Shown one piece after another: positions 12,201-53,060 of a stretch of 64,000 nucleotides of DNA. Numbering within the stretch: position 1 is the first letter of the stretch; the number at the start of each line of letters is the position of its first letter. The translations under genes were made by a program, and so were the position numbers. The DNA is from Antedon bifida (Eukaryota > Echinodermata > Crinoidea > Comatulida > Antedonidae), in NCBI GenBank assembly GCA_963402885.1, contig OY727096.1, positions 32,221,820 through 32,285,819 on the forward strand. Reading direction: 5' to 3'. Below the pieces are notes generated by a model. That model saw only the letters and a list, made by a program, of their open reading frames with translations. It was not told the DNA's origin and searched no databases.

Positions 12201-15200
12201 AACAAGCGAACAAGACTCACCTTGTTGTCATCCATGACAGTGTTAAGAGATTCAATCCACATAGGATCAATGTCACCATCTAACACGATCCATTTGGGTC
12301 CATCATGTGAGATGTTACTCATATCTCGCATGATGGTGGAAAACAGACCATCTTTCCATTCTCGCGTTGCTGGGTTGATGATACCAAACAGTTCATCGTT
12401 GGTAACAGCTTTTGGGTTGAGGTCGATGAAGACTGGTTTGCGTTTTAGATTTGCATACGTTTTATTTAATACTTTCAATACCTGTGAACCAGACAATACA
12501 ATATTGTAACAAAGCAGTAACTGTGAATTTTCGTCTTAAAAACTACTACTACTAAATTAGAATTTTAGTTGAACACTATGTATGTATGCTTTACCTGTGT
12601 TTTACCGGTTCCTGCATTACCAATGACAAATACAGAATGCCTAACTGCAAGTAATTCTTCCAACTGTACAACTTTCAACACAAAGTTATCTTCTGCTTGT
12701 AGTTTCAGATCGATGGTAGACTGTTTCACGACCTTCTCAAAGTTCAAGTCTCTCTTACGTGGCACATCCAACGATGGGAAAAGATCACCAATCAATCCCA
12801 TAAATACCGGCATGTCATCGGTAACGATCTTGGGGATGTTGAAATCACGAAGCGCCCTCATTAGCACCTGGTCTTCTGGACGCTGCTTGTCGCTTCTCTT
12901 CAGTGAACCGGCAACGACCAATACAGATTTAATTGCACGTAAACCCCAATCATAATGATCCTGAAATCAAGTTAACATTCATTAAGTTATTGATATTAAA
13001 GGTGAGTCCCGTATTCATTTACTGAACGCAGAGTAATGAGCTGTTAGCTAAGCCTCTGCATTATGTGGTAGGGTGGCCAGTTTCTTTCCACGCCACCTTA
13101 TCCTCCCTAGTATTTTCCACCAGCTACTTATTTACAGCTGAGTAGACGTGGAGTTGACGGGAATTGAACCCATGTCTCTGTCAGTCAGTCAAGTGTCCTA
13201 ACCACTCGGCTACACAATTCCTTATTAATAGTACTGTATTATAAAAAAAACAAATAATGTTGTAATATCTTCTGAGTTCACATTCATACAATGTTTAGCT
13301 AATTTCTAACCTGTTTTGATAACAACTCTTTACAGAGGGTGTAGAGTGTAATAAATTTCCTTGCCAGTAGCCTAGCATCAAGGAAACCTTCAGCCACCAA
13401 CATGATCTCACAAATCAGTTCAAAATCTGGAACCACCATAGCACATGGTCTAAAAAACAAAACAAACCATTATTAAGGTGATCCACACTAGTATAATTTA
13501 TAGTTTCTGATATGTTGCTGATTAACATATACACCAATTCCATTTTTCTTGTTTGTGTGCAATGTTTTAGTTCTTTGTATCTAAGGATCCAAGGAAAATA
13601 AGTTGTTAAATTTTCTTGGAATTCCTATGTAATCGAGGCCTGATTTTTTCTGCAATCAATGTTTTACAATATTATTGTTTAAAACTCTTGATTACTGAAT
13701 AATAAGCTTTATTCAACTACCTAAAGAGTGCTTTCAGATTCTCTGGCAGTTCAGTCCTGCCGGCATAACCTGGATTCATAGTGATAAATATTCCAACAAT
13801 TACCTAAAGAGTGCTTTCAGATTCTCTGGCAGTTCAGTCCTGCCGGCATAACCTGGATTCATAGTGATAAATATTCCAACAATTACCTAAAGAGTGCTTT
13901 CAGATTCTCTGGCAGTTCAGTCCTGCCGGCATAACCTGGATTCATAGTGATAAATATTCCAACAATTACCTAAAGAGTGCTTTCAGATTCTCTGGCAGTT
14001 CAGTCCTGCCGGCATAACCTGGATTCATAGTGATAAATATTCCAACAATTACCTAAAGAGTGCTTTCAGATTCTCTGGCAGTTCAGTCCTGCCGGCATAA
14101 CCTGGATTCATAGTGATAAATATTCCAACAGTTGGAACCAAGTTGATCTCTTCTCCCATGAAGTTAAAACGTTTCTTTTTATCCCGAATTGCATCCTGGA
14201 CACACTTGACCTAAAAAAGATCAAATTAACATGAAATAATATAATAATAATCACTTACTTTAGAAAACTATTTCAGGACCCAAGTGGAAATAATTTTTCT
14301 TGGCTATCCTTGTGATAACGATCTATTCCATTACCAATTTGTTTTTGTCATGATTGTTCTATTTAAGCTTGTTTATATTTATGTACAGTATTTTAATTGA
14401 CCTTGATTGCTTAATAAGGAAACTCAAACTCAAAATTCTACTAAGGTCACAGAGCAATGTACTTGAACGCCTTGAGTTCATATTCCATAGTCTTACCTGT
14501 ACAGCCACAACAGACAAGACTTCTACAGATATTCTGTTGAACTCATCAAAGCAACCCCAAGCACCAGTTTGAGACAAACCTTTATAGATGTTACCACAAG
14601 ACTACAACAAACAAGTTTTACTTTCAAAATCGTTGATTGCTACATGATATTAGATATCAACGTGTGCAAGACAAAACAAAATTAATTTCATAAGAATTTA
14701 TACCATCATTAAACATTGAAAATATTATCACTTATCTTTCTGCGCCTTGAGCACTCTTGAGTGGTATGTGCGCTATAAAAATCTTGTTATTATTATTATC
14801 AAACTAGTTTTACAAAAGAAGTCTGATGTGCCCAAATATGGTAGTGAAAAAAAAAATGCTTAAATATGGTAGTGATATGACATCACCATGTCCATATATG
14901 AGTACATCACATTTTTTTGTCACATAAAGTTTGATAGTGTAGACAAGGCTTTACCTTATAGTCCATTTGTTCAGAGCAGTTGAATACATAGACCATGATA
15001 CCAAGTGCCCGACCTAAATCTTTGGTTGTTTCTGTTTTACCGGTTCCTGCAGGACCAGCTGGAGCACCACTCATTGTTAAATGCAGCGATTGTGTGAGGG
15101 TAATATAGCACCTGTAATAAAAAAATTCCCATTAGACATCTCGTTTTTTAAACATGCAGTGATTCCTCCAAAGACTACACAATCATATGCAACACTCTCG

Positions 15201-30849: not shown

Positions 30850-31100
30850 GATGTTAAATGTGCTCTCCCTGCCTCAGCACTAAGGCCCTGCCACAGCCTT
30901 TTGGGGTCGTTTCCAGCACATCACCAGATGCATTGATGTTGTCGCCTCATGATGTGTGGTGAAAAGGGGGACGTATAATTCTGTGAACCCCAAACACAGT
31001 GGCCGCATGCCTTTAACTCTATTCCACCGACCAGCGTGGGAATCGAACCCACGACATACGTGTGTTAACACGACGCTCAGACGACTGAGCTAACTGATCA
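30850..31100 (-). mobile_element. tRNA-derived SINE (Val-like head), unit 1
   Basis: The minus-strand head at 31028-31100 has a 7-bp acceptor pairing (GATCAGT with GCTGGTC), a D-arm GCTCAGTCGTCTGAGC, an anticodon-loop-like TTAACAC and a T-arm GTGGGTTCGATTCCCAC. The body continues (GGCATGCGGCCACTGTG) to a T-rich tail. The same element recurs in the other two units. A functional tRNA is unlikely because it is embedded in a repeat. Confidence 0.8.
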
Positions 31101-31199
31101 TTTTGGTTTTAGAAAGGTTAATAGGATATTAATGACGTAATTATGAATTACATAATACACGTATAAATAGACAATTATCAGCTGTTCAGTCATGTTTCA

Positions 31200-31545
31200 G
31201 TTTGTGGTGCAACGGGTACTGCTCAGTTTTGAGTGCTATCAGCTGGGGTTCGAACCTCTACGGATATTTTTTTTATGAATTTTTTTTTTAAAGAGAGATA
31301 TTTGGAGGATTGAAAATGTCAGGCCTAGGCAAGTGGACCTTAAATCATAAACAAAAGTGTATGGCATTTATTTTTGGTTTTAACAAGGTTAATGTGATAT
31401 TTATGACGTAATGATGAATTATGTAATACACGTATACATAGACCATTATCAGCTGTTCTGTCATGTACTACTTTGTGGCCTAACGGGTAATGCTCAGCTT
31501 TGGGTGCTCTCAGCTCTAGTAGATTGGGTTCGAACCTCTACGGAT
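31200..31545 (+). mobile_element. Pair of tRNA-like SINE heads in direct orientation (also in units 2 and 3)
   Basis: Two related ~270-bp segments each end in a tRNA-like head: TGGTGCAACGGGTACTGCTC with GGGGTTCGAACCTC, and TGGCCTAACGGGTAATGCTC with GGGTTCGAACCTC. A-box and B-box matches are good. Equivalent pairs occur at about 33363-33706 and 35431-35774. Confidence 0.65.
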
Positions 31546-32270
31546 ATTTTTTTTTTAAATAAACAATAAATAAATATAAAAAATAATGAATATTGTTTTT
31601 CTTTTATTTTGAAAGAGAGATATTTTGAGGGTTGTAAATGTCAGGCCTAAACAAGTGGACCTTTTTTAAAATCAGAAACAAAGTTGCATGGCATTATTTT
31701 TCATCAAATAGACTGCCATAAAACCTCGAAAAGAAGCCCATGTGCTTCTTCATTTTTAGTACTCTTGGGTGGGCTTCTTTTCCACATGGAGTTCTTTTCG
31801 AGATTACTTTTGCAAACTAAAAAGAGGGGAGCTGAGGTTCCCGGCCGGAAAATGTTTTATTTACATGATTTCAACAATCTCCTAATGTAAAGATTAACAA
31901 CATAAAAATTTAACAGTATGGCGTGTTGACCGCGAATGACTAAAATACCATCTTCCCCATAATACACCTGCACAAACTCATTTGCATAACAACGCACGGC
32001 ATACCAAACTGTTTAAAATAGAGCTGCAAGGTCTCCGGAAATGACATCTATTATTTCTTAAAACAACATGAATAAGAATCTTCAGTACCTTACCATGCTT
32101 GGCGCTGAGCAAAGACAATTTTGAAAAATAGAACCTGCATAGGTTCCCGCCCAAAAAAAATGGCACTTTACATGATTTTAAATTATATGAAACAAACTAT
32201 TTAAGACTCACCAGGACAATAGAGCTTGTCCCCGTAAAAGTGCACCTATAATTCATTGAAATTAGCCCAC

Positions 32271-34430
32271 CATGGTTGGGGCAGAGAAAATAATGAAAAT
32301 AGAGCCAAGAATTGCACTTATACTTATAACTATACATAATCACCTAATGGTAATTATGATAATGTTAAAATTTCAACTGTCCAGATGCGACTTCAACATA
32401 ATATAATGAAAATAGAGCCCCGAATTGCACTTATACTTATTACTATACATAGTCACCTATGGTAATTATATATATGATAATGTTAAAATTTCAACTATCC
32501 ATATGCGACTTCAACATTTTAGGTGGGGTTTTCTACTTTAAAACTCGACTTCGTGGGCCTACCCGGCGGCGGAATTAATCGAAGCTTCGAAATTTAATCT
32601 TATTTCACACTCTCCATTAACCCCATACAAAAACCATCGGAGACAAACTATCTGTTCAAAACATGTTTATTCTGGGGATGGTTGCGGCAATACACACCAA
32701 CTACCATAAAAGTTTATTCATAACATTTTACAATACAATCTTGCATGAATGGGACATTTCGCTACCAATGTAGCAATATTGATTAACAAAATCAAAATTT
32801 AACAGTGTGGCGTGTTGACCGCGAATGACTAACAATACCATCTTTCCCACTACACCTGCACAATCATTGCATAACAACGCACGGCATACCAAACCGTTTC
32901 GTACACCTGCGATGAAAATATAAAATTCAATTTCTTTTAACATTGAGGGCGGCAAACATAAAATTTACGAGATCGAATACAGGTTGGAAAAAAAATTAAA
33001 TAAAAAAAAAGATGTTAAATGTGCTCTCCCTGCCTCAGCACTAAGGCCCTGCCACAGCCTTTTGGGGTCGTTTCCAGCACATCACCAGATGCATTGATGT
33101 TGTCGCCTCATGATGTGTGGTGGAAAGGGGGACGTATAATTCTGTGAACCCCAAACACAGTGGCCGCATGCCTTTAACTCTATTCCACCGACCAGCGTGG
33201 GAATCGAACCCACGACATACGTGTGTTAACACGACGCTCAGACGACTGAGCTAACTGATCATTTTGGTTTTAGAAAGGTTAATAGGATACTAATGACGTA
33301 ATTATGAATTACATAATACACGTATAAATAGACAATTATCAGCTGTTCAGTCATGTTTCAGTTTGTGGTGCAACGGGTACTGCTCAGTTTTGAGTGCTAT
33401 CAGCTGGGGTTCGAACCTCTACGGATATTTTTTTTATGAATTTTTTTTTTTAAAGAGAGATATTTGGAGGATTGAAAATGTCAGGCCTAGGCAAGTGGAC
33501 CTTAAATCATAAACAAAAGTGTATGGCATTCATTTTTGGTTTTAACAAGGTTAATGTGATATTTATGACGTAATGATGAATTATGTAATACACGTATACA
33601 TAGACCATTATCAGCTGTTCTGTCATGTACTACTTTGTGGCCTAACGGGTAATGCTCAGCTTTGGGTGCTCTCAGCTCTAGTAGATTGGGTTCGAACCTC
33701 TACGGATATTTTTTTTTTAAATAAACAATAAATAAATATAAAAAATAATGAATATTGTTTTTCTTTTATTTTGAAAGAGAGATATTTTGAGGGTTGTAAA
33801 TGCCAGGCCTAAACAAGTGGACCTTTTTTAAAATCAGAAAAAAAGTTGCATGGCATTATTTTTCATCAAATAGACTGCCATAAAACCTCGAAAAGAAGCC
33901 CATGTGCTTCTTCATTTTTAGTACTCTTGGGTGGGCTTCTTTTCCACATGGAGTTCTTTTCGAGATTACTTTTGCAAACTAAAAAGAGGGGAGCTGAGGT
34001 TCCCGGCCGGAAAATGTTTTATTTACATGATTTCAACAATCTCCTAATGTAAAGATTAACAACATAAAAATTTAACAGTGTGGCGTGTTGACCGCGAATG
34101 ACTAAAATACCATCTTCCCCATAATACACCTGCACAAACTCATTTGCATAACAACGCACGGCATACCAAACTGTTTAAAATAGAGCTGCAAGGTCTCCGG
34201 AAATGACATCTATTATTTCTTAAAACAACATGAATAAGAATCTTCAGTACCTTACCATGCTTGGCGCTGAGCAAAAACAATTTTGAAAAATAGAACCTGC
34301 ATAGGTTCCCGCCCGAAAAAATGGCACTTTACATGATTTTAAATTATATGAAACAAACTATTTAAGACTCACCAGGACAATAGAGCTTGTCCCCGTAAAG
34401 TGCACCTATAATTCATTGAAATTAGCCCAC
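32271..34430. repeat. Foldback internal repeat, unit 2 of 3
   Basis: It is nearly identical to unit 1, offset by about 2161 bp at the SINE. It begins with a duplicated leader (ATAATGAAAATAGAGCC appears at 32289 and 32401) and lacks a short stretch near 32595. Confidence 0.85.
33011..33261 (-). mobile_element. tRNA-derived SINE (Val-like head), unit 2
   Basis: A copy of the element at 30850-31100, almost base for base, including the paired acceptor and T-arm. Confidence 0.8.
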
Positions 34431-36030
34431 CATGGTTGGGGCAGAGAAAATAATGAAAATAGAGCCAAGAATTGCACTTATACTTATAACTATACATAAT
34501 CACCTAATGGTAATTATGATAATGTTAAAATTTCAACTGTCCAGATGCGACTTCAACATTTTAGGTGGGGTTTTCTACTTTAAAACTCGACTTCGTGGGC
34601 CTACCCGGCGGCGGAATTAATCTAAGCTTCGAAATTGATCTATAAATCGGCATCTTTACAAATGTTCTATATTTGATCTTATTTCACTCTCCATTAACCC
34701 CATACAAAAACCATCGGAGACAAACTATCTGTTCAAAACATTCTGAGGACGGTGCGGCAATACACACCAACTACCATAAAAGTTTATTCATAACACTTTA
34801 CAATACAATATCTTGCATGAATCGGACATTTCGCTACCAATGTAGCAATATTGATTAACAAAATCAAAATTTAACAGTGTGGCGTGTTGACCGCGAATGA
34901 CTAACAATACCATCTTTCCCACTACACCTGCACAATCATTGCATAACAACGCACGGCATACCAAACCGTTTCGTACACCTGCGATGAAAATATAAAATTC
35001 AATTTCTTTTAAAATTGAGGGCGGCAAACATAAAATTTACGAGATCGAATACAGGTTGGAAAAAAAATTAAATAAAAAAAAAGATGTTAAATGTGCTCTC
35101 CCTGCCTCAGCACTAAGGCCCTGCCACAGCCTTTTGGGGTCGTTTCCAGCACATCACCAGATGCATTGATGTTGTCGCCTCATGATGTGTGGTGGAAAGG
35201 GGGACGTATAATTCTGTGAACCCCAAACACAGTGGCCGCATGCCTTTAACTCTATTCCACCGACCAGCGTGGGAATCGAACCCACGACATACGTGTGTTA
35301 ACACGACGCTCAGACGACTGAGCTAACTGATCATTTTGGTTTTAGAAAGGTTAATAGGATATTAATGACGTAATTATGAATTACATAATACACGTATAAA
35401 TAGACAATTATCAGCTGTTCAGTCATGTTTCAGTTTGTGGTGCAACGGGTACTGCTCAGTTTTGAGTGCTATCAGCTGGGGTTCGAACCTCTACGGATAT
35501 TTTTTTTATGAATTTTTTTTTTAGAGAGAGATATTTGGAGGATTGAAAATGTCAGGCCTAGGCAAGTGGACCTTAAATCATAAACAAAAGTGTATGGCAT
35601 TTATTTTTGGTTTTAACAAGGTTAATGTGATATTTATGACGTAATGATGAATTATGTAATACACGTATACATAGACCATTATCAGCTGTTCTGTCATGTA
35701 CTACTTTGTGGCCTAACGGGTAATGCTCAGCTTTGGGTGCTCTCAGCTCTAGTAGATTGGGTTCGAACCTCTACGGATATTTTTTTAAAAATCAGAAACA
35801 AAGTTGCATGGCATTATTTTTCATCAAATAGACTGCCATAAAACCTCGAAAAGAAGCCCATGTGCTCCTTCATTTTTAGTACTCTTGGGTGGGCTTCTTT
35901 TCCACATGGAGTTCTTTTCGAGATTACTTTGCAAACTAAAAGAGGGGAGCTGAAAGGTTCCCGGCTGGAAAATGTTTTTATTACATGATTTGAACAATCT
36001 TCTAATGTAAAAATTATCATCAACATTTTA
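34431..36030. repeat. Foldback internal repeat, unit 3 of 3, shortened
   Basis: It is nearly identical to units 1 and 2, with the SINE at about 35083-35333. Roughly 100 bp are missing near 35783 and the unit stops at ~36030, where the first right-end-like block follows. Confidence 0.85.
35083..35333 (-). mobile_element. tRNA-derived SINE (Val-like head), unit 3
   Basis: The third copy of the element at 30850-31100, with the same head and body. Confidence 0.8.
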
Positions 36031-39384: not shown

Positions 39385-39489
39385 GATGACATTTTACAAG
39401 CACTCATCACATTGGTGCAGATGACATTTTACAAGCACTCATCACATTGGTGCAGATGACATTTTACAAGCACTCATCACATTGGCGTA
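39385..39489. repeat. 35-bp triplet repeat over the RNF216-like stop codon
   Basis: Three copies begin at 39385, 39420 and 39455. The third covers the last codons and the TGA stop (39477-39479). The other two lie in the 3' untranslated region. Confidence 0.9.
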
Positions 39490-42400
39490 GATCCTGTCGG
39501 TGCCTTTCCTGTCTTATCATCCCTTGCATCATATCCTACCAAACAAATCAAAAAATTAAATATAAATTAGGTTTAATAATAAATTTAAATCCAAATGCAA
39601 ACAAAGAAATCAGCATTTATATTTAACGTAATAATTAATTAATAATTATTATTTTTATACTATGATGAACAGTGACTACCTTTTGCCTTACGCTCCTCCT
39701 GAAGCCTCTTCTCAATTTCCTTGACCGCTCGTTCGTCGTCCTCCTTCGGGTCACTCCAAAGGGAGCATGCTTGGCATTTTGCGCATGCGTGACCGGGATT
39801 GCGAGGGTGCTGGCAGAAATGATTGTAATCAATGTTTGGCAATCGGCAGATGTAGCACATCTTAGCTCCACACCGGCATGTTATCTTAAATTGTAAGTTC
39901 AATAAAAAATTAGGAAAAAAAGGATTTTACACATTAAAAATAGAAAAGTCTGTTTCAAGATACTCTTAAGCTGTCTACACTATCAAACTATTTTGAACAA
40001 AAAAATGTGATGTGCCCAAATATATGGTAGTGATATGACATCATCATGTCCATATGTGGGCACATCACATTTTGTTGTCACATAAAATTTGATAGTGTCG
40101 ACAGAGTTTAAGAGTAGATGCAGCCCTGGCTTGCAGCCCTAACTGAGTAGATACCCCCAGAAACATTTGCTTTCAGCAAAGAAGCTGTGCAGAATGGGAA
40201 AAGATATTGAAGTTAGGAACAGATTTAGATGCAACTTCTAGTTGCAGCTTTCACTTCAAGTAATCATTACCTTATTGCACCCATCACTTTTCATATAACC
40301 AGTTTTGCATTTAAAACATGTCCTCATTTTGGCGTTTGTCATCCGTTCCTCATATGAGACTCGTAACGATGTTTCATCTTTCTTTTCTATCTCGCTGCAA
40401 GGGACACCAATATGTTCTTTCCAATTTTCCTTACAATATCTACAGCTTTCCTAGAATTTAAAGAAAAATAATTACTATCAATATGTTTTACTGCTACTAG
40501 TTACTACATGTTAAACTTTGGAAGTTTTTGAGAAGTAGGAAAATTCCAGTATACACCAAGTTCAAGTTGCTCTTCATTGTACAAAGGTTACATTTATCGA
40601 AGTGTCAATAAAATACTACTCTACTTATATTTATTGAATTGAGAATTCCACACAACAAAATTGGAAGCCCCAATGCAACTACCCAGCATTGGAGGGACCA
40701 TTAGGAGTGCTGAACCAAATATCTTTACACCCAGCACTGTATTTATATTTACTGTTTGTTTAATTTGTAAACAAAGCAATACCTTAAGACACTCCGGATT
40801 TTGACATTTGAAAACTTTGTCGTCTGTGTCCATGATGGCGGCAAATTCACAAGATGGACATTTAACAAGGTTGTCTAAATCAGCAAGGTTCAGCGACTCC
40901 TCCTTTTGGCGTTCCTCATATTTGGCAATTACGTCTTTGGGTAAACATTTATCAAGCTGACCTATAAAGAATAAACAAACAAAATAATAATAATAATAAT
41001 AGAAACTTTGTACAATGGATTTGTTTTCTTTTTAAAACTTAAAGATGTATTGTCACCCTGAAAAAATAATTCTTAACAATTTTGTTGTTGAATATGCCAT
41101 TTTATGTCACCTAACAGTTATCCACTTTGACCAACAATTGGATCGAAAAGAAAATGTCTTTACTTAAAAAACTGTAATTTAAAGAACAAATAGTCAAATT
41201 GGCTGCCAGCCAATGGGTTTTTGGTTGAATTTAACCATTTATTTTGTCATTAACATGACATTAATTTTGTTTCGGGTTTTTTTTTTCTACGGAAGTGATT
41301 AACTTTATTAAAACTACAAAATTTGTATTTTATTTTATTAATCTTTATTTTTTATGTTTTTGGGGGACAATACATCTTTCACATTAATGTACAAAAGCTT
41401 TGAATAAAAATAATTAAGTGGGGATATTTACTTTTAGGAAACCTTGATTCGCATCCATCAGACATGCAGGAAAGGTTAAGTTTGCCCGAACCGTACACCG
41501 CTTCCTTCGCGTAACTGTTCATGCACATCGTGCAAAATAGATGACCGTCGGAGCACTGCACCATTTGTTCAAAGGCTACTTCACCATAGCAACAACCACA
41601 CTCAATCAACTGACCCTCCTATATGAAAAAAAAACACAAAAACCTACAATTAATATGATTGTTGCATGTGTTTGCAAATATTTGCTCCATAACTAAAAAA
41701 TGTATTGTAGATGGAGAAGTATTCTATTATATTTAAGCTCTTAGAGTTTGCTAATTGATGCAAATTAGTTTTTTCTTTTTGTAAATTATTAGAGTTTTTT
41801 GATAGATGAAATATTTCCGAAATAAAAGAAATTGAATTATAATCTTTCAAAATTAAAAAATTTCTATTCTTCAATTTAAACTGGATGATACTGATATTTA
41901 TTTTTTACTGGCAACAACCATCTATTATAATGTACACATAACAAAAAATTAAAGATGCCACGAGCACTATAAGATACATTTAAACAAATTGTTTAACTGG
42001 AAATAGTGTTTAACTGGAAATAGTGTTTAACTGGAACACTGTGCGACATTAGTTACAATGGTTCCGCATAGCACAGCTCACATACAGTACCATAAATTGA
42101 TCTTGTGATATATTATAAAATAGATAGGTCTTCCTATCACTGTGAAGACAACACTGCTTTACATTTATTGACAAAGTTTTACCTGTTCATACTCTTGGCC
42201 ATTTAGAGTGACTGCAAGCTCTCGATCTGTCGACTAATAAAAACAAAAGAATAATAATTAAAATACATATAAATTGCAATAAATAGGGCTGGACAATATT
42301 GTTTTAGATAAGTAGCTAAACTAAATATTGAGATTCCCTCTGCATTAAAATTTAAATAATTATATCTTTATTATAAGAAATAGCGTTTGTACACATGGGG

Positions 42401-45400
42401 TATCAAAATAACAGGAATAGTACTGGAAAGATTTAAAGTATTTGAAAACAGCCTCTGTATCATTCCTTAATTAAAAACATTTTAAAAACATGCATTTTAG
42501 TTACAATTAAAAAAGCAAACCTCAATATCTTTCTGAATTTGCCGGTTATAAAAATCGATTTCCTCCTGCAACTCTGGGATTATATTCGCTGGTGGCCTGT
42601 AGTTCTTGCGGCCGCACAACAGTGTTTTGATTGACAGGTTACGCGTCATCTTTCCGGCAATGTTGACCGAGACCACGCCCTTATAGTGCTCCCCTGGTTG
42701 TACCATGCACTTGGTGATTTCTTTGTTTTTTTCCAGGATTTCTTGGATTGCTTTCTCAGTTGGAGCATAATGATGGTTATAAATAGACAGGATGTCCCTC
42801 AAGAACTGTGTAGATAACTAAAACAAAAAACAGCGAGTTTGCTTGAGATTGATAGTTCTAAAGCTCTGACTATACTATCAAACTAGTTTGACAAAAAAAA
42901 AATGTGATGTGCCCAAACAGTAGTGATATGACATCATCATGTCTATATATGGGCACATTTTTTGTCCCATAAAGTTTGATAGTATAGATGAGGCATTAGG
43001 TGGGTTTAGCAGAAAAGTAGACCCCAATGGAAATGTTACTTAGCTTTTTAGGCTATCTAGGAAAATCTTCTATAAATGTAAATCTGTACATTTCAGTAGT
43101 TTACATTACCATTTGGATATAATTATTTTTTACAATATTTAAATTAAATTCAAATCAGTTTACTTCTATGTTTACATAATGATTCTTCACTTATTTAACA
43201 AGATAACCTAACAATAAATGTTATAATATATAATAATAAAATAACTTACCTTAAAATGCTTTGCTTGCATTAGACTAAGTACTTGTTGGCAATAAGTAAG
43301 AGATGGACGTAGAGAAAAGTCAACAAAGTAATCAATCTCTCTTTCATCATGCATAGTTGTTTTCTGGAATTGAAAAATTATGTTTGTCAAAGATTAGCTC
43401 ACATAACCTTATTGGAACAATTAGGATTCTTTTAGAAGATCAGAACTAAATATTCAAATCATACAGTGACATAAGAAAATACCAAATTCCTATAGAAACG
43501 CTGTTTGTTTACAATCTGACAATCAAGTTAGGTCAGAACTGGAACACTTGATGTACAAATGTACACATAAAAGTACACATAAAAACACACACAAATACAT
43601 AAAATATCATACTTTTAAAATTGTATATAACTTACTTTTTCTTTGGTTTGCTTAGGATAAGGGTTTTCTAAGAGGTAGTTTATAATTCTCTGAACTGCCG
43701 ATGCATTGTCCCCACCCTGAAAGCCAGGCAATTTTTCTCTTAAATACTTAACTTCTATATCTGGTATAAGATTCATCTAGAAAATAAAAGACAAAAGAGC
43801 ATTAATTTGATGATCTTTGTCTAATGACACTAAAAATATTGACATATAATAATATATGCAGTTAGATCTTACAATGCTACTCTAAAAAGATAATGCTGTG
43901 CTTTATGAACCTCATTTTATTTGTGTGCTATTTGTTTTTTCTCGCTGTGCTTTTTAACATATTTTAGATTTTTATTATGATTGTTGTGCTTGCCTTTTTG
44001 TGTGCTTTTTATAAGTTTCTATGAATCTTTGTATTACCACAACCAAATGAATTTCCCCCGGTGTTTGGGATAATAAAGTTTTATTGATTTGCCATGTTCA
44101 CAAGAGTCACATGTCACCAACTCACAAAAAAAAAAAGAACACAAAAGAGACATCGGAGAGAAAATGAAGACAAAAGGAATGTGATGTAGAGTAGCACAGA
44201 AAAGATAAAGAAGAAAAGGATGTACGTTTTTAATTTCTTTTTAAATGCAAATGAGGAATACATTGTAAAGGTAGAGAAACAACCCTAACACACATGAATA
44301 CATTAAAAGAGTGAGGATGCTTACCACTTCTACCATTTGTACATCAATGCTTGGCAGTTCTTCCACACAATTCTAACACACATGAATACGTTAAAAGAGT
44401 GAAGATACTTACCACTTCTACCATTTGTACATCAATGCTAGGCAGTTCTTCCACACAATTCTAACACACATGAATACGTTAAAAGAGTGAAGATACTTAC
44501 CACTTCTACCATTTGTACATCAATGCTAGGCAGTTCTTCCACACAATTCTAACACACATGAATACGTTAAAAGAGTGAAGATACTTACCACTTCTACCAT
44601 TTGTACATCAATGCTTGGCAGTTCTTCCACACAATTCTAACACACATGAATACATTAAAAGAGTGAAGATACTTACTACTTCTACCATTTGTACATCAAT
44701 GCTTGGCAGTTCTTCCACACAATTCTAACACACATGAATACGTTAAAAGAGTGAAGATACTTACCACTTCTACCATTTGTACATCAATGCTTGGCAGTTC
44801 TTCCACTGCTGCCACTACAGGTACTCCTGTTGTCCCTGACAGTTGGTTATTTGAAATTGGTTCCCGTGCCATTGGTTCCTCTGAAATTGGTTTTTGTGCC
44901 ATTGGTTCCTCTAAAATTGGTTCCCGTGCCATTGGTTCCTCTGAAATTGGTTTTTGTGCCATTGGTTCCACCATTGATGGTACAAGTTTGTTTGCTTGTT
45001 CTAAATTCATCTAATCAGAACATATTTAATAAAATATATTATTAAATATAAAGCATAATTAGGCCCAAAAAAGTTATGTTGCCCAAGCATGTAAATTCAG
45101 GGATTATCTTAAATTCAGATGTATATACTGGCACATAATTAATCTCTTTATTTGAGACGACCCCTTAACTGAGTGTACAAGTAAAGATTAGAATACTGCA
45201 CCCAACTAACGTCTACGAAGAGAACAAAGCAAGATTCCATTTTTATACCTTCAGACGAACTGAATTTTTAGAAAAATAAGAAAAAAAAAAAAAAAAAATA
45301 CATACCATGTTTTGGAGGTAAAGCAAGTTAGTTTGCAAATTGGAAAGTGGATTGGCAGGAACAATGCCGTAGAGATCTGAAAAACTTGGTGTACTACCGG

Positions 45401-47625
45401 TTTCTGTTAAATCTATCATATTATTAGTATCAACCTCCTTGATAGACACCATCTGTCCATTAAGACTTGCAACATTTCTTCCACTTAACATCCCATTATT
45501 AGTACCGAATTCAGATACATGCTCATCATTGTAACCTCCGACATGATATCCTATAGTTGGGTGATGATAGGTACTAGCAGAATCATCACTAAACCTTACT
45601 TTTTGTAGACTTTTATGATTAACTCTGTCAGCAGATTTTGACACAGCACTTGCCACAATAAAACCACGAGAATCTGGTCCAAAAATGTTTCTTGGAGGAG
45701 TTTCCAAAACGGCATTTTTATTTCCACTCATGTTAGTTTGACTATGATATGATGGGCTTTTATGTTTAACTCTGTCAGCAGATCTTGAAAAAGCACTTGC
45801 ACCATTAAAACCAGTAGTAAAATTTGCATTTTTGGGCACAGAATCTGGTCCAAATGTTTTCCTTGGGGGAGTTTCCAAAACGGCATTTTTATCTCCACTC
45901 ATGTTAGTTTGACTATGATATGATGGGCTTTTATGTTTAACTCTGTCAGCAGATCTTGAAAAAGCACTTGCACCAATGAAACCAGTAGTATAATTTGCAT
46001 TTTTGGACAGAGAATCTGGTCCAAATGTTTTCCTTGGGGGAGTTTCCAAAACGGCATTTTTATCTCCACTCATGTTAGTTTGACTTTGATATGATGGGCT
46101 TTTATGTTTAACTCTGTCAGCAGATCTTGAAAAAGCACTTGCACCAATGAAACCAGTAGTATAATTTGCATTTTTGGACAGAGAATCTGGTCCAAATGTT
46201 TTCCTTGGGGGAGTTTCCAAAACGGCATTTTTATCTCCACTCATGTTAGTTTGACTTTGATATGATGGGCTTTTATGTTTAACTCTGTCAGCAGATCTTG
46301 AAAAAGCACTTGCACCAATGAAACCAGTAGTATAATTTGCATTTATGGACAGAGAATCTGGTCCAAATGTTTTTCTTGGGGGAGTTTCCAAAATGTTATT
46401 TTCATCTCCACTTTTGTCTTGAAACTTTTTTTGTTTAACTGTGTCACCAAATTTGGACACAAAAGACACAGAATCTGCACCAACGAAATCACTAGTAGAA
46501 TTGTCACTTCTGTACAGAACATCAGGATGTCTGGAGATGGAAGAAGGTGCACCAGAGGTTTTTCTGAATTGACAGCTTGGAAACAAATTTGGTGAAAGAC
46601 AATATCTTGTGTCTGGAATAAACGAAGGAACTACTTCCGACGACGATGCAGCAGAAAATATATCAGAACGGGCAAATTTAGGAGAATTTACTTCATAACC
46701 AACAAGGGGGCGCTTTAATTGATGTCTGTAACTTGTATCATTTTTGTCGCTACAGTCTGAAAAAACACACGATTCAGTTGATTTTTTATTCGAGCTGCCG
46801 GTGGTCCCGATAATCATACCATTATCGAAACCATTTGCTTGTATGTTTTCCAAGTTATTGGAAGTATTCAGGAACTGTTCTGGTAAAATGTTATTATTTT
46901 TAGAAGTATTTGTCTGTGTTTTGGATAGCTTATCAATCAATATTTCTGACTTCTTAAGTAAACAATCAGTGTTAAGAAGGAAATTGGACAGAAGGTCATT
47001 GTTATTTAAAGTTTGTTCTGGTTTGAAGACAGGCATTGGTGTTTTAACAATAGTTTGCTCCGACTTTACACCAAACTTTTGAGACTTCAACAAACTTGAT
47101 GGTGAATCTTGTGTCATATAAGAATTTGGAAAATGTTTATAACCATCTTCTTTTGGTGATGTTACTATTGTCAGTTCGTCACCATCTTCATTATCATTTA
47201 TCACAACTGTTTCAGAAACATCAGGAATTTCTGGGGAAAAACCCAATATCATTAAATTGATAAATGATATAATAAAATTACTGCTAGCCTAGCTGATTAA
47301 TGGGTGTTTCACACCTGTTCCGAGACAGTTCCGGTCTGGCACTTATCGATTGGCACATAGCTGTGTGGAAAAAGACACATTGACGTTCAATTCGCCGGAA
47401 CAGAATCGTGCAGGAACAGGTGTGAAAGACCCTTTACTTACTCTTTTCCTGAGGGATGGTATCCATAGAAAGTAAGCTTTCCACACACCTCACAACAAGC
47501 TGTTCCTGGTCCAATAAATCAACTGAAATGATTGTATCGTTGATTAAAGACTTGAGGATCTTCTTACTGGCATCTGGAAACATACCTTCCAGTGTGTTCA
47601 AAGCGCTTAACCTCATAATCTCCAT
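39477..47625 (-). CDS. RNF216: RNF216/TRIAD3-like RBR E3 ubiquitin ligase
   Basis: A RING-between-RING ligase: RING1 recruits E2~ubiquitin and a RING2 cysteine passes ubiquitin to substrate. Coding exons: 47442-47625, 45306-47230, 44765-45010, then five mini-exons (44677-44724, 44589-44636, 44501-44548, 44413-44460, 44325-44372), 43636-43776, 43250-43363, 42521-42817, 42183-42233, 41432-41618, 40783-40961, 40271-40450, 39680-39884, 39477-39535. RING1 is [20 protein letters not shown], then CTMC; the IBR starts [12 protein letters not shown]2 holds SDGCNKITCRCG with the likely catalytic Cys. The tail ([27 protein letters not shown]) is typical of RNF216. About 1255 residues without mini-exons and 1335 with all five, against roughly 900 in human. 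The N-terminal half is low-complexity and repeat-rich. The start at 47625 ([20 protein letters not shown]) is chosen because an upstream in-frame ATG at 47658 lies before a possible acceptor. Confidence 0.93.
39968..40110. mobile_element. Palindromic MITE, same family
   Basis: A slightly eroded copy (AAGCTGTCTACACTATCAAA at the left, GATAGTGTCGACAGAGTTTA at the right) in the RNF216-like intron between 39885 and 40270. Confidence 0.85.
42861..42998. mobile_element. Palindromic MITE, same family, diverged
   Basis: It starts AAGCTCTGACTATACTATC and ends GATAGTATAGATGAGGCATT, so both arms carry matching-type substitutions. It lies in the RNF216-like intron between 42818 and 43249. Confidence 0.83.
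43885..44092 (+). mobile_element. 3' end of a truncated non-LTR retrotransposon
   Basis: AATTTCCCCCGGTGTTTGGG and ATAATAAAGTTTTATTG is the standard 3' tail of many CR1/L2-like LINEs. It is preceded by T-rich sequence without coding capacity. It lies in the RNF216-like intron between 43777 and 44324. Confidence 0.6.
44325..44812 (-). repeat. Six-copy 88-bp tandem array: five 48-nt mini-exons plus parent exon end
   Basis: Donor-adjacent edges lie at 44325, 44413, 44501, 44589, 44677 and 44765, exactly 88 bp apart. Each of the five downstream units has an acceptor (CATGTGTGTTAG), a 48-nt open segment encoding [16 protein letters not shown] and a donor GTAAG. The 40-nt introns contain CTTCACTCTTTTAAC, a plausible branch and pyrimidine region. 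48 nt is 16 codons and both flanks are phase 0, so any number can be included without a frameshift. The upstream parent exon shares only the last 36-40 nt of the unit. Confidence 0.93.
44845..44985 (-). repeat. 30-bp coding tandem repeat in the RNF216-like gene
   Basis: About four and a half in-frame 10-residue units of the type [10 protein letters not shown] / MAREPISEEP within exon 3. The units alternate between two sequence types. Confidence 0.9.
45400..45430 (-). other. SUMO-interacting-motif-like segment in the RNF216-like protein
   Basis: The protein reads [10 protein letters not shown] here. IDLT next to acidic residues resembles SUMO-interacting motifs. A second candidate ([15 protein letters not shown]) lies near 47155-47205. 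This is motif similarity only. Confidence 0.35.
45670..46400 (-). repeat. 171-bp coding tandem repeat in the RNF216-like gene
   Basis: The start word GAATCTGGTCC recurs at 45670, 45841, 46012, 46183 and 46354, a period of 171 bp (57 residues). Units carry [20 protein letters not shown] and [12 protein letters not shown]. The outer units are more diverged and one is shortened. Confidence 0.95.
47302..47434. mobile_element. Short inverted-repeat element in RNF216-like intron 1
   Basis: GGGTGTTTCACACCTGTTCC at the left is mirrored at the right by GGAACAGGTGTGAAAGACCC, with a second inner pair around GTTCCGG/CCGGAACAG. About 130 bp, non-coding. It makes up most of the 211-bp intron 47231-47441. 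Confidence 0.75.
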
Positions 47626-49050: not shown

Positions 49051-49512
49051 TATGTATAGAGTAGGGGAAGGTCTCTGTTCTGTTGGTAACAATATCTGGA
49101 ATGTTCGATTCTCTTCAGTTCATATATAAATAGAATGAACCAAAAGTAGTTGTATTGCGTACTAACAAATTACTTTCATATTTGCTCCACAGATTCTTCT
49201 AATGTGCCCTACTTAGATGGTACCGAGATAAAACCAAAATAATGACTTATTTTATTAAATATTTAAATTGTCGGCAAGTTATAACACGTACACTTGTATT
49301 CTTTTTCAAATTTGCATACACGTGTCGCATACACCTGCCTCTGTGGGTTGCTATCAGCTTTGTTATCCCACTGGATATGCAGTTCCATGTTCAACAGCAG
49401 CCAGCTCTAGCTTGACATTAAATGTTCAGACAACACACTTGTTAGCAGACAGAAAGCAAGAACAATCTGAATTGAATGCATGCAATTGTACATTTTGATT
49501 CAACAAAACAAG

Positions 49513-51896
49513 ATGTCACGGAGTGTAAAAGATTTACGAGAACTTGTTTGCGTTTCACGGTTGACAATCCGTGAAAGTGATGAAGAGTATAGTGATGATG
49601 AAAGCTTAGTCCGTCCATTTAGTTCAATGAGCATTTTATCAGATGGTACAACGACTCTACGAGAAAATTCAGCAAAAGTGAATCGTGGAATCAATACTAC
49701 TATAGTTCCAAAACCACCCTCTTCTGCAAAGCAAACTAAACTTAAGTTTAAAAAAGCAGAAAATCAGTTTTCTGGAAAAATCAGTGGTTCAAAGCAAAAT
49801 GAGTCTAATCATCTGAATGATTTCAAGTTAGCTAAAAAACCACTACCACCTGTTCAGTCATCCTTATCAAGGTCAATTAATAGTGATGAAGCCCGCCCTC
49901 TATCGTCTACTGGTAACTTTGACAACGTACTTGAGTATATGGATGAAAGTTGCGTTGAATCTTTTTTAAAACGTGCAAACCAATTGGTAAATGAGTTATC
50001 GTCATGGTGTCACAATAATTACAACTTTGTCCATTTTGCAAATTTTTGGCTTCAAAAAATACCTGACAGACAGAAACTAGATCTGTATGAACTGGAAATT
50101 GGGATAATCAATGATGAACTTAGATTTGCGTTTCAATCAGGAATCGAACAACAAAAAGTAAAGTTGACTGATTTAAGCAAGTTGGTTTCCGCAGTTGTAC
50201 GCGAGTATCCGACAAGGTTGTGTACTCTTCGTGGACCGTATATATTCCTTGACATTTTAGATACGCTTACTTCCGACAGAACTGCTGCGTACAAAGAGCT
50301 GCTTACAGATGTAAAAATATCGACAAGAAATCGTAAATTTGCACAATGGATGCTGGCAACGAGGGCGTTTGCTTTATTAAATATCTGGACTGCAGCGGTT
50401 AATTTTTACCGTAGGTTAATCGGAGATTCGAACACCGATGTTACACCAATTGAAGAACGATCTAAAGATACCGCTGCTCAAAGGGTATTTGTCGCAACTG
50501 GTCTGGGATACGTGCATTTTCTACATTATTATTTCAAAGCTAATAAGATTTCAGCAGATGTGTTGGATACTCAGAAACGGTCACTGGTGTTTGAAGCGGT
50601 CACCAAGAACCAGGAAACTGCTCTGTTGTACCTGCTTACCAAGGTATGCAGGAGTAAATAATGTACAGGCCCATGGAAGGGGCAGGTTGGGGTGGGGTTT
50701 GGGTGCTGAGAATTGTAATGTAATAGGCCTGACCTGGATTACGAATACACATCAAAATACTACTATAAACACAATTTTTCATATCCTTTAAAATCAATGC
50801 CTAAACCAAACTGTTTTATGAATTGTATGTTGATAAACCCCTCATCAAATTCTCAATTTATTATTCTTACACATTTTTTGTCAAAATTTGATATCAAATT
50901 GACATTACTGTATCTCGTATATAAATCACTTTATCAGCTCACTTTATTTCCATAAAAATAAACAAAAATACAAGATGGCAGACATACAACAAAGGCAGAG
51001 CCTGTAAAAAACATACATTGAAAAACAATACGCAACAAACATATATAGTTAAATTCTGTTTTTTATATTTGCAGGTGAAGCCAAGGCCCGACATAAACAG
51101 TCCGGCCGACTCTGGTAACATGGCGCTTCATACTGCTGCCAACATGGGCAGCGTGTCAATAGTGCGTTTACTACTGGAGAAAGGAAATACAAACGTGAAC
51201 TGCAAGAACGATAAATGTGATGACGCTACACCACTCCACCTGGCTGTAATGCAAGGTACAAGTGTTATAAAGCTCTGTCTTTACTATCAAACTTTATGTG
51301 ACAAACGTGATATTGCCCATATATGGACATGATGATGTCATATCACTACCATATTTGGGCATATCACTACCATATTTTGGCACATCACACTTTTTTGTCA
51401 AACTAGTTTGAGAGTCTAGACAAATCTTTAGGAATTAAACAACTAAAACTTCCTTTAATTATAGATTTGTGGGGCCTGGGTTTTTAAAATCTAATAGAAA
51501 GACCTATGCGGGAGCCAAGGTTCTTACTTGTGAGCCCATCTCCTTGAAATAGGAGGTAGGCTTAAAAGGACAAAGTAAAATTGGCATTTGACAGTTTAAC
51601 TATACCAGGAGAATCATACCTAGAATTTGATACATTAAAAAAAAAATTAAAGTTTAATAATAAAATATTTAAGCAAAAAGCAAATATTATGGTGTAAGTA
51701 ATCATGTAAAATTTCTTTTTTATTAGGCCATAAAGATGTCTGTCAATTGTTGATAGAAGCTGGTGCAGACGTGCAGGCTAGTATGGCAGGAATAACCCCG
51801 CTGGACTTGGCTAACGATATGGGCCACACAGACATTACAGACATGATATCTAAAATGATGGAGTCGCAATCGCAAAGTCCAATGGAAGAGTCGTAA
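49513..51896 (+). CDS. Ankyrin-repeat protein with uncharacterised N-terminal region, 3 exons
   Basis: Coding exons are 49513-50643, 51075-51255 and 51727-51896, giving 493 residues with phases that join correctly. The first ~130 residues are Ser/Lys-rich and likely disordered (ESDEEYSDDESLVRPFSSMS). Residues ~135-375 form a mostly helical domain I do not recognise (SSWCHNNYNFVHFANFWLQK, FAQWMLATRAFALLNIWTAA). The C-terminus has ankyrin repeats: GNMALHTAANMGSVSIVRLL, DATPLHLAVMQGHKDVCQLL and GITPLDLANDMGHTDITDMI. I chose the ATG at 49513 (AAGATGTC context); an in-frame ATG at 49480 would add 11 residues. A polyadenylation signal AATAAA lies at 51932. I cannot assign a family or function. Confidence 0.85.
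51270..51430. mobile_element. Palindromic MITE, same family, in ankyrin gene intron
   Basis: It begins AAGCTCTGTCTTTACTATC only 14 bases after the donor of ankyrin exon 2 and ends TTTGAGAGTCTAGACAAATC. Its interior orientation matches the copy at 38386. Confidence 0.85.
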
Positions 51897-52733: not shown

Positions 52734-53060
52734 AACTACGACCATACAGCATTGAAACATCGGTTCTCATCAGATCACCAAAGTTAAGCAATGTTGGGCC
52801 CGGTTGCATTCTGGATGGGAGACTGTCTGGAATCGTGGCGGGTGCTGTATATACTGAAGAGTGACGGTGTAATGAATATCGGACTAGCATGTGATAGGCA
52901 TGGGTTCAAGCCTATCTGTACCATATTAACTGTATCCTTCAGATGGGACATAAAGCCGTTGGTCCCATGTACATAGTGCACGTTTCGCAAAGAGTAGGGT
53001 ATCATCTCCCAGTGTGCTGATCTGGTAGGCACTGCATTGGGTCCGTGGAGGGCCTAATCC
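52734..53060 (+). mobile_element. 5S rRNA-derived composite SINE
   Basis: Bases 52734-52851 align by eye with 5S rRNA: CTACGACCATACAGCATTGA at the start, AAGTTAAGCAATGTTGGGCC (A-box region), GGATGGGAGACTGTCTGG (intermediate element) and GGTGCTGTAT at the end. A tRNA-like B-box (GGGTTCAAGCC, about 52900) follows, then a core TCCTTCAGATGGGACATAAA shared with 15601-15745, and a tail with GGGCCTAATCCGAATTTCC. Substitutions in the 5S stems make a working rRNA unlikely. SINE3-type elements use 5S heads. Confidence 0.85.

Follow-up and report, generated by a model that had tools for sequence, protein, structure and literature searches.

An 88-bp tandem array across the exon 3 boundary of an RNF216-like gene in Antedon bifida: probably a 'mirage' minisatellite skipped by splicing

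Tandem repeats that run across exon-intron boundaries have been described in amphioxus under the name 'mirages', and the available sections of the two papers concerned place them in Adh3 and in the globin genes BflGb6 and BflGb9 (PMC3087553) and also in TnC and PGBD5 (PMC3902484). In those sections of the globin paper, the units measure 10-72 bp in Adh3 and 150-160 bp in BflGb6, many of them carry AG/GT signals, and two BflGb6 haplotypes have 6 and 3 units; the Adh3 data and RT-PCR of the globins suggest regular splicing, and a route from a mirage unit to an exon is sketched in the legend to Figure 7 (PMC3087553). The excerpt of the second paper says of the mirages in Adh and TnC that they 'do not generate aberrant mRNAs'; a predicted PGBD5 exon embedded in repeats was omitted by its authors (PMC3902484). 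Tandem duplication has also supplied splice sites in ATP2A1/ATP2A2 and in potato RdRp, according to excerpts of PMC4974935, and in human genes of segmental duplications internal tandem repeats at such boundaries generate alternative splicing via novel introns, according to excerpts of PMC2812944. No closer precedent for echinoderm boundary arrays or variable exon cassettes was found in the open-licence literature.

We analysed a window of 64,000 nucleotides of Antedon bifida DNA (contig OY727096.1, positions 32,221,820 to 32,285,819), in which a predicted RNF216-like E3 ligase gene of 12 exons occupies positions 39477 to 47625 of the minus strand. Its exons 1-6 (47625-47442, 47230-45306, 45010-44765, 43776-43636, 43363-43250 and 42817-42521) and exons 7-12 (42233-42183, 41618-41432, 40961-40783, 40450-40271, 39884-39680 and 39535-39477), all on the minus strand, join into a model of 3768 nt with a single, terminal stop, encoding 1255 amino acids without mini-exons, and the introns of this model span 144-988 nt. 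The RBR region of the gene matched RNF216 PDB entry 7m4m_A with 324.7 bits (E = 4.1e-96, query residues 2-251 of 257), indicating that its RBR domain is related to that of RNF216 and bearing out the identification made in a preliminary description of this DNA. Searching the genome at the protein level revealed no further RNF216-like copy. Three further repeats were observed on the minus strand of the gene: an in-frame 171-bp unit present 4.4 times in exon 2 (57 residues per unit, window positions 45668-46412), nested in-frame repeats of 15, 30 and 60 bp that make up about half of exon 3 (44852-44969) and a 35-bp array of 3.1 copies lying across the stop codon (39385-39492). Elsewhere in the window, three tRNA-like matches with equal scores and no anticodon assigned by ARAGORN, perhaps belonging to a tandem segment, are spaced about 2.1 kb apart at 31027-35333 on the minus strand, and the plus strand carries a single 5S rRNA-like match (53.4 bits, 52734-52853) and a FAM220 family protein (Pfam E = 5.6e-54, 49510-50661), after which an open frame contains ankyrin-like sequence, as read by eye.

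Exon 3 (44765-45010, minus strand, 246 nt) has phase 0 at both ends and a coding score of 29 over 44765-45000, and its last 42 nt form the first unit of a tandem array at 44285-44806 on the minus strand, which was recovered by TRF, by a repeat finder and by script. TRF assigned the array a period of 88, 5.9 copies and a 97% match. The six units start at 44806, 44718, 44630, 44542, 44454 and 44366 on the minus strand, every step being exactly 88 bp, and each unit consists of the 42 nt that end exon 3, 40 nt of intron and 6 nt between units; the repeat unit therefore spans the predicted exon-intron boundary of an open 12-exon model, and the near-identical units are of minisatellite size and show signs of turnover. 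Unit 1 holds the end of exon 3 itself, which finishes at 44765 with the donor GTAAGTAT, and each of units 2-6 has a TTAG acceptor, 48 nt in frame and a GTAAG donor, with 40 nt between neighbours. The resulting candidate mini-exons m1 to m5, each of 48 nt, lie on the minus strand at 44677-44724, 44589-44636, 44501-44548, 44413-44460 and 44325-44372; all have an acceptor score of 2.43, and their donors score 3.87, 6.22, 6.22, 6.22 and 5.02, respectively. A script reproduced the exact 88-bp period, the mini-exon coordinates and the layout that the preliminary description had given. That description called the five mini-exons identical, which holds for the protein, as all share one 16-residue translation, but not for the DNA, in which two silent differences (CCA/CCT and GTG/GTA) occur; three intron columns also vary. 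The CCT change is common to the adjacent units 4 and 5, which are identical to each other, and changes are most numerous in the last unit. None of the five copies contains a stop or frameshift, and this, combined with exonic changes that are exclusively silent, would be compatible with weak selection, although the pattern consists of two changes, a number too small for a selection test. Exon 4 (43636-43776, minus strand) is likewise in phase 0, and the 12-exon model stays open whether it includes no mini-exon or all five (1335 aa), in agreement with the reported phase-0 flanking exons. The array region of the protein is without recognised domains.

Among the best candidates scored in the 315.6-Mb genome, the unit was found at no place beyond these six, and genome searches with the array unit and the protein found no RNF216 retrocopy. 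A tandem array that is nearly perfect and known from one assembly might be taken for an assembly artefact with inflated copy number; however, the substitutions between units indicate that most of them are distinct copies (units 4 and 5 being identical), and the 528 bp would fit well within a modern long read, and we therefore give this explanation hardly any credence.

The array is probably a 'mirage' minisatellite that splicing skips. According to this explanation, a segment made up of the terminal 42 nt of exon 3, the initial 40 nt of the intron that follows and a further 6 nt would have undergone tandem duplication and then expansion into six copies, the first of which would have been retained as the end of exon 3; the anatomy of the unit agrees with the earlier proposal that an exon end was copied in tandem together with adjacent intron containing TTAG. 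The spliceosome would then join the donor at 44764 to the strong exon 4 acceptor at 43777 (score 7.0, 75th percentile of 131 introns), so that units 2-6 would be removed with the intron and the protein would be unchanged. When the array is skipped, intron 3 runs for 988 nt (43777-44764, minus strand) from the first donor directly to the exon 4 acceptor. The 48-nt in-frame 'mini-exons' would be a by-product of a copied phase-0 exon end standing beside a chance TTAG. That most transcripts skip the array is inferred from the size of the introns, the strength of the acceptor, a comparable array in a dynein gene and the amphioxus precedent, and we consider the mini-exon reading possible but unlikely as the main mode of splicing.

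Intron size was assessed in two ways. A self-trained gene finder run on 304 kb predicted 139 confident introns, of which 131 were kept; the eight dropped were shorter than 90 nt (20, 46, 63 and 77 nt, and four of 47 nt), one or both ends of seven of them lie within tandem arrays, and the 63-nt prediction falls within exon 2, where the frame is open throughout. After these eight had been dropped, the shortest of the 131 de novo introns was 92 nt, in a set of which some members are imperfect, as one intron with its donor at 44764 passes over exons 4 and 5, and another, in dynein, begins at the last array unit. Independently of this, the distances between successive exon matches in genes for dyneins, myosins, kinesins and tektins (at least 393 rows from five family searches) provided 197 estimates genome-wide among the matches listed, the smallest being about 82 nt and the median 320 nt, although the pair filter and the limits of the family searches could hide introns bridged within one match. 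The preliminary description had suggested looking for 40-nt introns elsewhere in this genome; neither survey contains one, and the 40-nt introns of the array, being less than half as long as the shortest introns found, lie outside the species' size range.

These lengths bear directly on a reading in which the array is a full cassette, with any number of mini-exons from 0 to 5 spliced in and consecutive units joined via the 40-nt introns. Every unit does have GT...AG ends and a 48-nt in-frame segment, and, 18 nt ahead of the AG, a branch-like TTAAC is present in four of the 40-nt introns and TTAAT in the fifth (branch consensus yUnAy, from the reference list of PMC4463651), but the distance from donor to branch is only about 21 nt, and no credible intron shorter than about 82 nt was present among the 131 de novo introns (eight shorter ones dropped) and the 197 homology-spaced estimates, which makes the full cassette extremely improbable. 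Because splicing has been reported for introns of 43, 49 and 56 nt in human genes, according to the available part of PMC4463651, the length argument is strong but not absolute. The related claim that any subset of mini-exons keeps the frame is true on paper, but, as counted from the coordinates, a minimum intron length of about 82 nt would leave 8 of the 32 subsets, with no more than two mini-exons in any of them: the empty subset, m2, m3, m4 or m5 alone, and the pairs m2+m4, m2+m5 and m3+m5.

Passing over one unit, by comparison, produces an intron of 128 nt or more, which is within the genome's range and would permit alternative inclusion at a low to middle level, with exon 3 joined to a non-adjacent unit (intron of at least 128 nt) and this unit to exon 4, for a gain of 16 or 32 residues, as in an exon in the making. 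The frame remains open with mini-exons, and their donors score 5.0-6.2 in four of five cases and reach the 73rd percentile in three of five; moreover, the route from mirage to exon proposed in the available sections of the amphioxus globin paper (PMC3087553) and the finding, in excerpts of PMC2812944, that splicing can be changed by internal tandem repeats at human exon-intron boundaries both point in this direction. On the other hand, the acceptor, which is the same in all five mini-exons, stands at only the 6th percentile of the 131 introns and would compete with the strong exon 4 acceptor, and the amphioxus mirages are reported as splicing-neutral in the available text of PMC3087553 and PMC3902484; we therefore regard such inclusion as unlikely, though with an appreciable chance of being real. 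Among the 31,618 AGs in the sample, 17.5% scored as high as the array acceptor. These percentiles are approximate, as nearly the same introns, a few of them mispredicted, had been used to train the scoring matrix. The gene finder left the RNF216 mini-exons unused, although it missed exons 4 and 5 there too. Rather unlikely, too, is a reading in which a mirage minisatellite is caught here on its way to becoming an exon family, with some transcripts containing one or two non-adjacent units, whereas adjacent units would be barred by the intron-length floor; if this were true, copy number would set the splicing options and add 16 or 32 residues before exon 4.

The array could also act through its donors. 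Six of them lie within 440 bp, and exon 3 is symmetric, combining a weak acceptor (3.3, 14th percentile) with a donor of 6.22 (73rd percentile), and its removal likewise leaves the RNF216-like model open. Repeated strong donors might thus serve as a splicing regulator, binding U1 and shifting the use of exon 3, with copy number tuning exon 3 inclusion, but such a role, which is not required to account for the array, appears quite improbable to us.

A second exon-end array provided a comparator for the proposed mirage. It consists of five 83-bp units with a 99% match at 13714-14130 on the minus strand, in an axonemal dynein heavy chain gene of the DNAH9/17 type, another exon of which had its best PDB matches in DNAH17 and DNAH9. 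Its donor is GTAATT, the next exon begins at 13449, and its units contain in-frame mini-exons of 36 nt separated by 47-nt introns, with an acceptor of 3.9 as against 2.43 in the RNF216 array; the gene finder chained these mini-exons together. A Pfam match places the dynein segment in the AAA_6 region, and inclusion of the mini-exons would insert repeats of a 12-residue peptide there, which would probably be incompatible with a working motor. Among the AAA_6 matches listed, no other dynein match contained repeated copies of the array segment, and among the at least 393 exon matches listed in the five family searches, near-identical local exon-end copies were confirmed only in this dynein. Ten overlapping pairs of profile segments had been flagged, four of which represent the dynein array, one a myosin pair and five others. 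The latter five (two on C16 and one each on C14, C13 and C10) were taken as alignment overlaps, four of them, all but the C16 pair at 15113504-15113955, having been inspected and found to contain no direct repeat of at least 25 nt, except for one 25-nt match of 72% in L040. The myosin pair, spaced 174 bp apart (L027, C9:20613429-20613734), was rejected as a mirage, since its copies are diverged (74% over 103 nt) and look like whole alternative exons. Separately, the same myosin-head exon (profile positions ~342-407) was observed at about ten places over 6 Mb of G000 C7, at about 11.6-17.8 Mb. The tektin exons indicate that the host is probably an ambulacrarian: a tektin-2-like and a tektin-1-like exon matched chains of entry 8snb, from sea urchin sperm, with 200.5 and 176.4 bits, compared with 137.4 and 138 bits for vertebrate-type chains. 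For a tektin-3-like exon the best match was Tektin-3 of 7ung (139.8 bits, with 110.9 for the highest-scoring 8snb chain), which would be expected of an 8snb structure lacking tektin-3.

How often an exon-end duplication would display such mini-exons was estimated by simulating 20,000 tandem duplications of 20-100 exonic plus 6-100 intronic nt from the 131 predicted introns of the genome. At least one in-frame, stop-free AG preceded the copied donor in 77% of them, and in 16% such an AG scored at least as high as the array acceptor. As a repeat, the near-perfect array is far beyond chance, and its in-frame mini-exon property is not; caution is needed in similar cases, as most exon-end duplications are expected to show 'in-frame mini-exons'. 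The term 'splice-competent', which the preliminary description had applied to the five segments, consequently fares poorly when this frequency is taken together with the 40-nt introns, the rank of the acceptor and the similar array in dynein.

Minisatellites are frequent in the 304 kb, in which arrays with a period of at least 15 numbered 102, a coverage of 6.4%. Only 4 of the 262 boundaries of the 131 introns lay inside arrays, fewer than this coverage predicts (p = 3e-4), in a sample that is biased by including a window picked for its array and with a gene finder that may do worse within arrays. The four boundaries are those in RNF216 and dynein, one poly-T stretch at an acceptor and one 30-bp repeat, the last of which we do not trust as an exon. 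Given this deficit, exon-end arrays may be non-neutral, and most may be lost through selection; the placement of an array at an exon end calls for no special mechanism.

The arrays in RNF216 and dynein add two near-perfect exon-end cases to the phenomenon described in amphioxus, and together they offer a natural test of whether the spliceosome passes over mirage repeats or whether such repeats can seed exons: inclusion in dynein would duplicate a portion of a conserved motor domain, whereas in RNF216 the frame would be kept and no recognised domain would be affected. Among the systems compared, the myosin-head pair resembles the RNF216 array in consisting of neighbouring in-frame exon copies, but its members are diverged and look like whole exons with their own introns, unlike the near-identical partial exon ends in RNF216. 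Tandem myosin alternative exon pairs of such a kind are presumed to be mutually exclusive. Intron gain of the Rogers type duplicates an exonic AGGT and creates a new intron with the protein unchanged, whereas in RNF216 an existing donor and the start of its intron would have been duplicated; exon 3 ends in GTG followed directly by GTAAG, and the TTAG acceptor is intronic, so that no duplicated exonic AGGT is present. The human boundary repeats, as described in excerpts of PMC2812944, are also minisatellites at exon-intron boundaries, but they occur in primate-specific paralogues with transcript evidence, whereas the RNF216-like gene, found in a single copy, has been read from genomic DNA only. 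The closest resemblance is to the amphioxus mirages as the available sections of PMC3087553 present them, which likewise span the boundary with near-identical units of a size similar to 88 bp and with AG/GT signals inside. The array described here differs from them in that its host is Antedon bifida and in that all five internal RNF216 units carry both an acceptor and a donor in frame.
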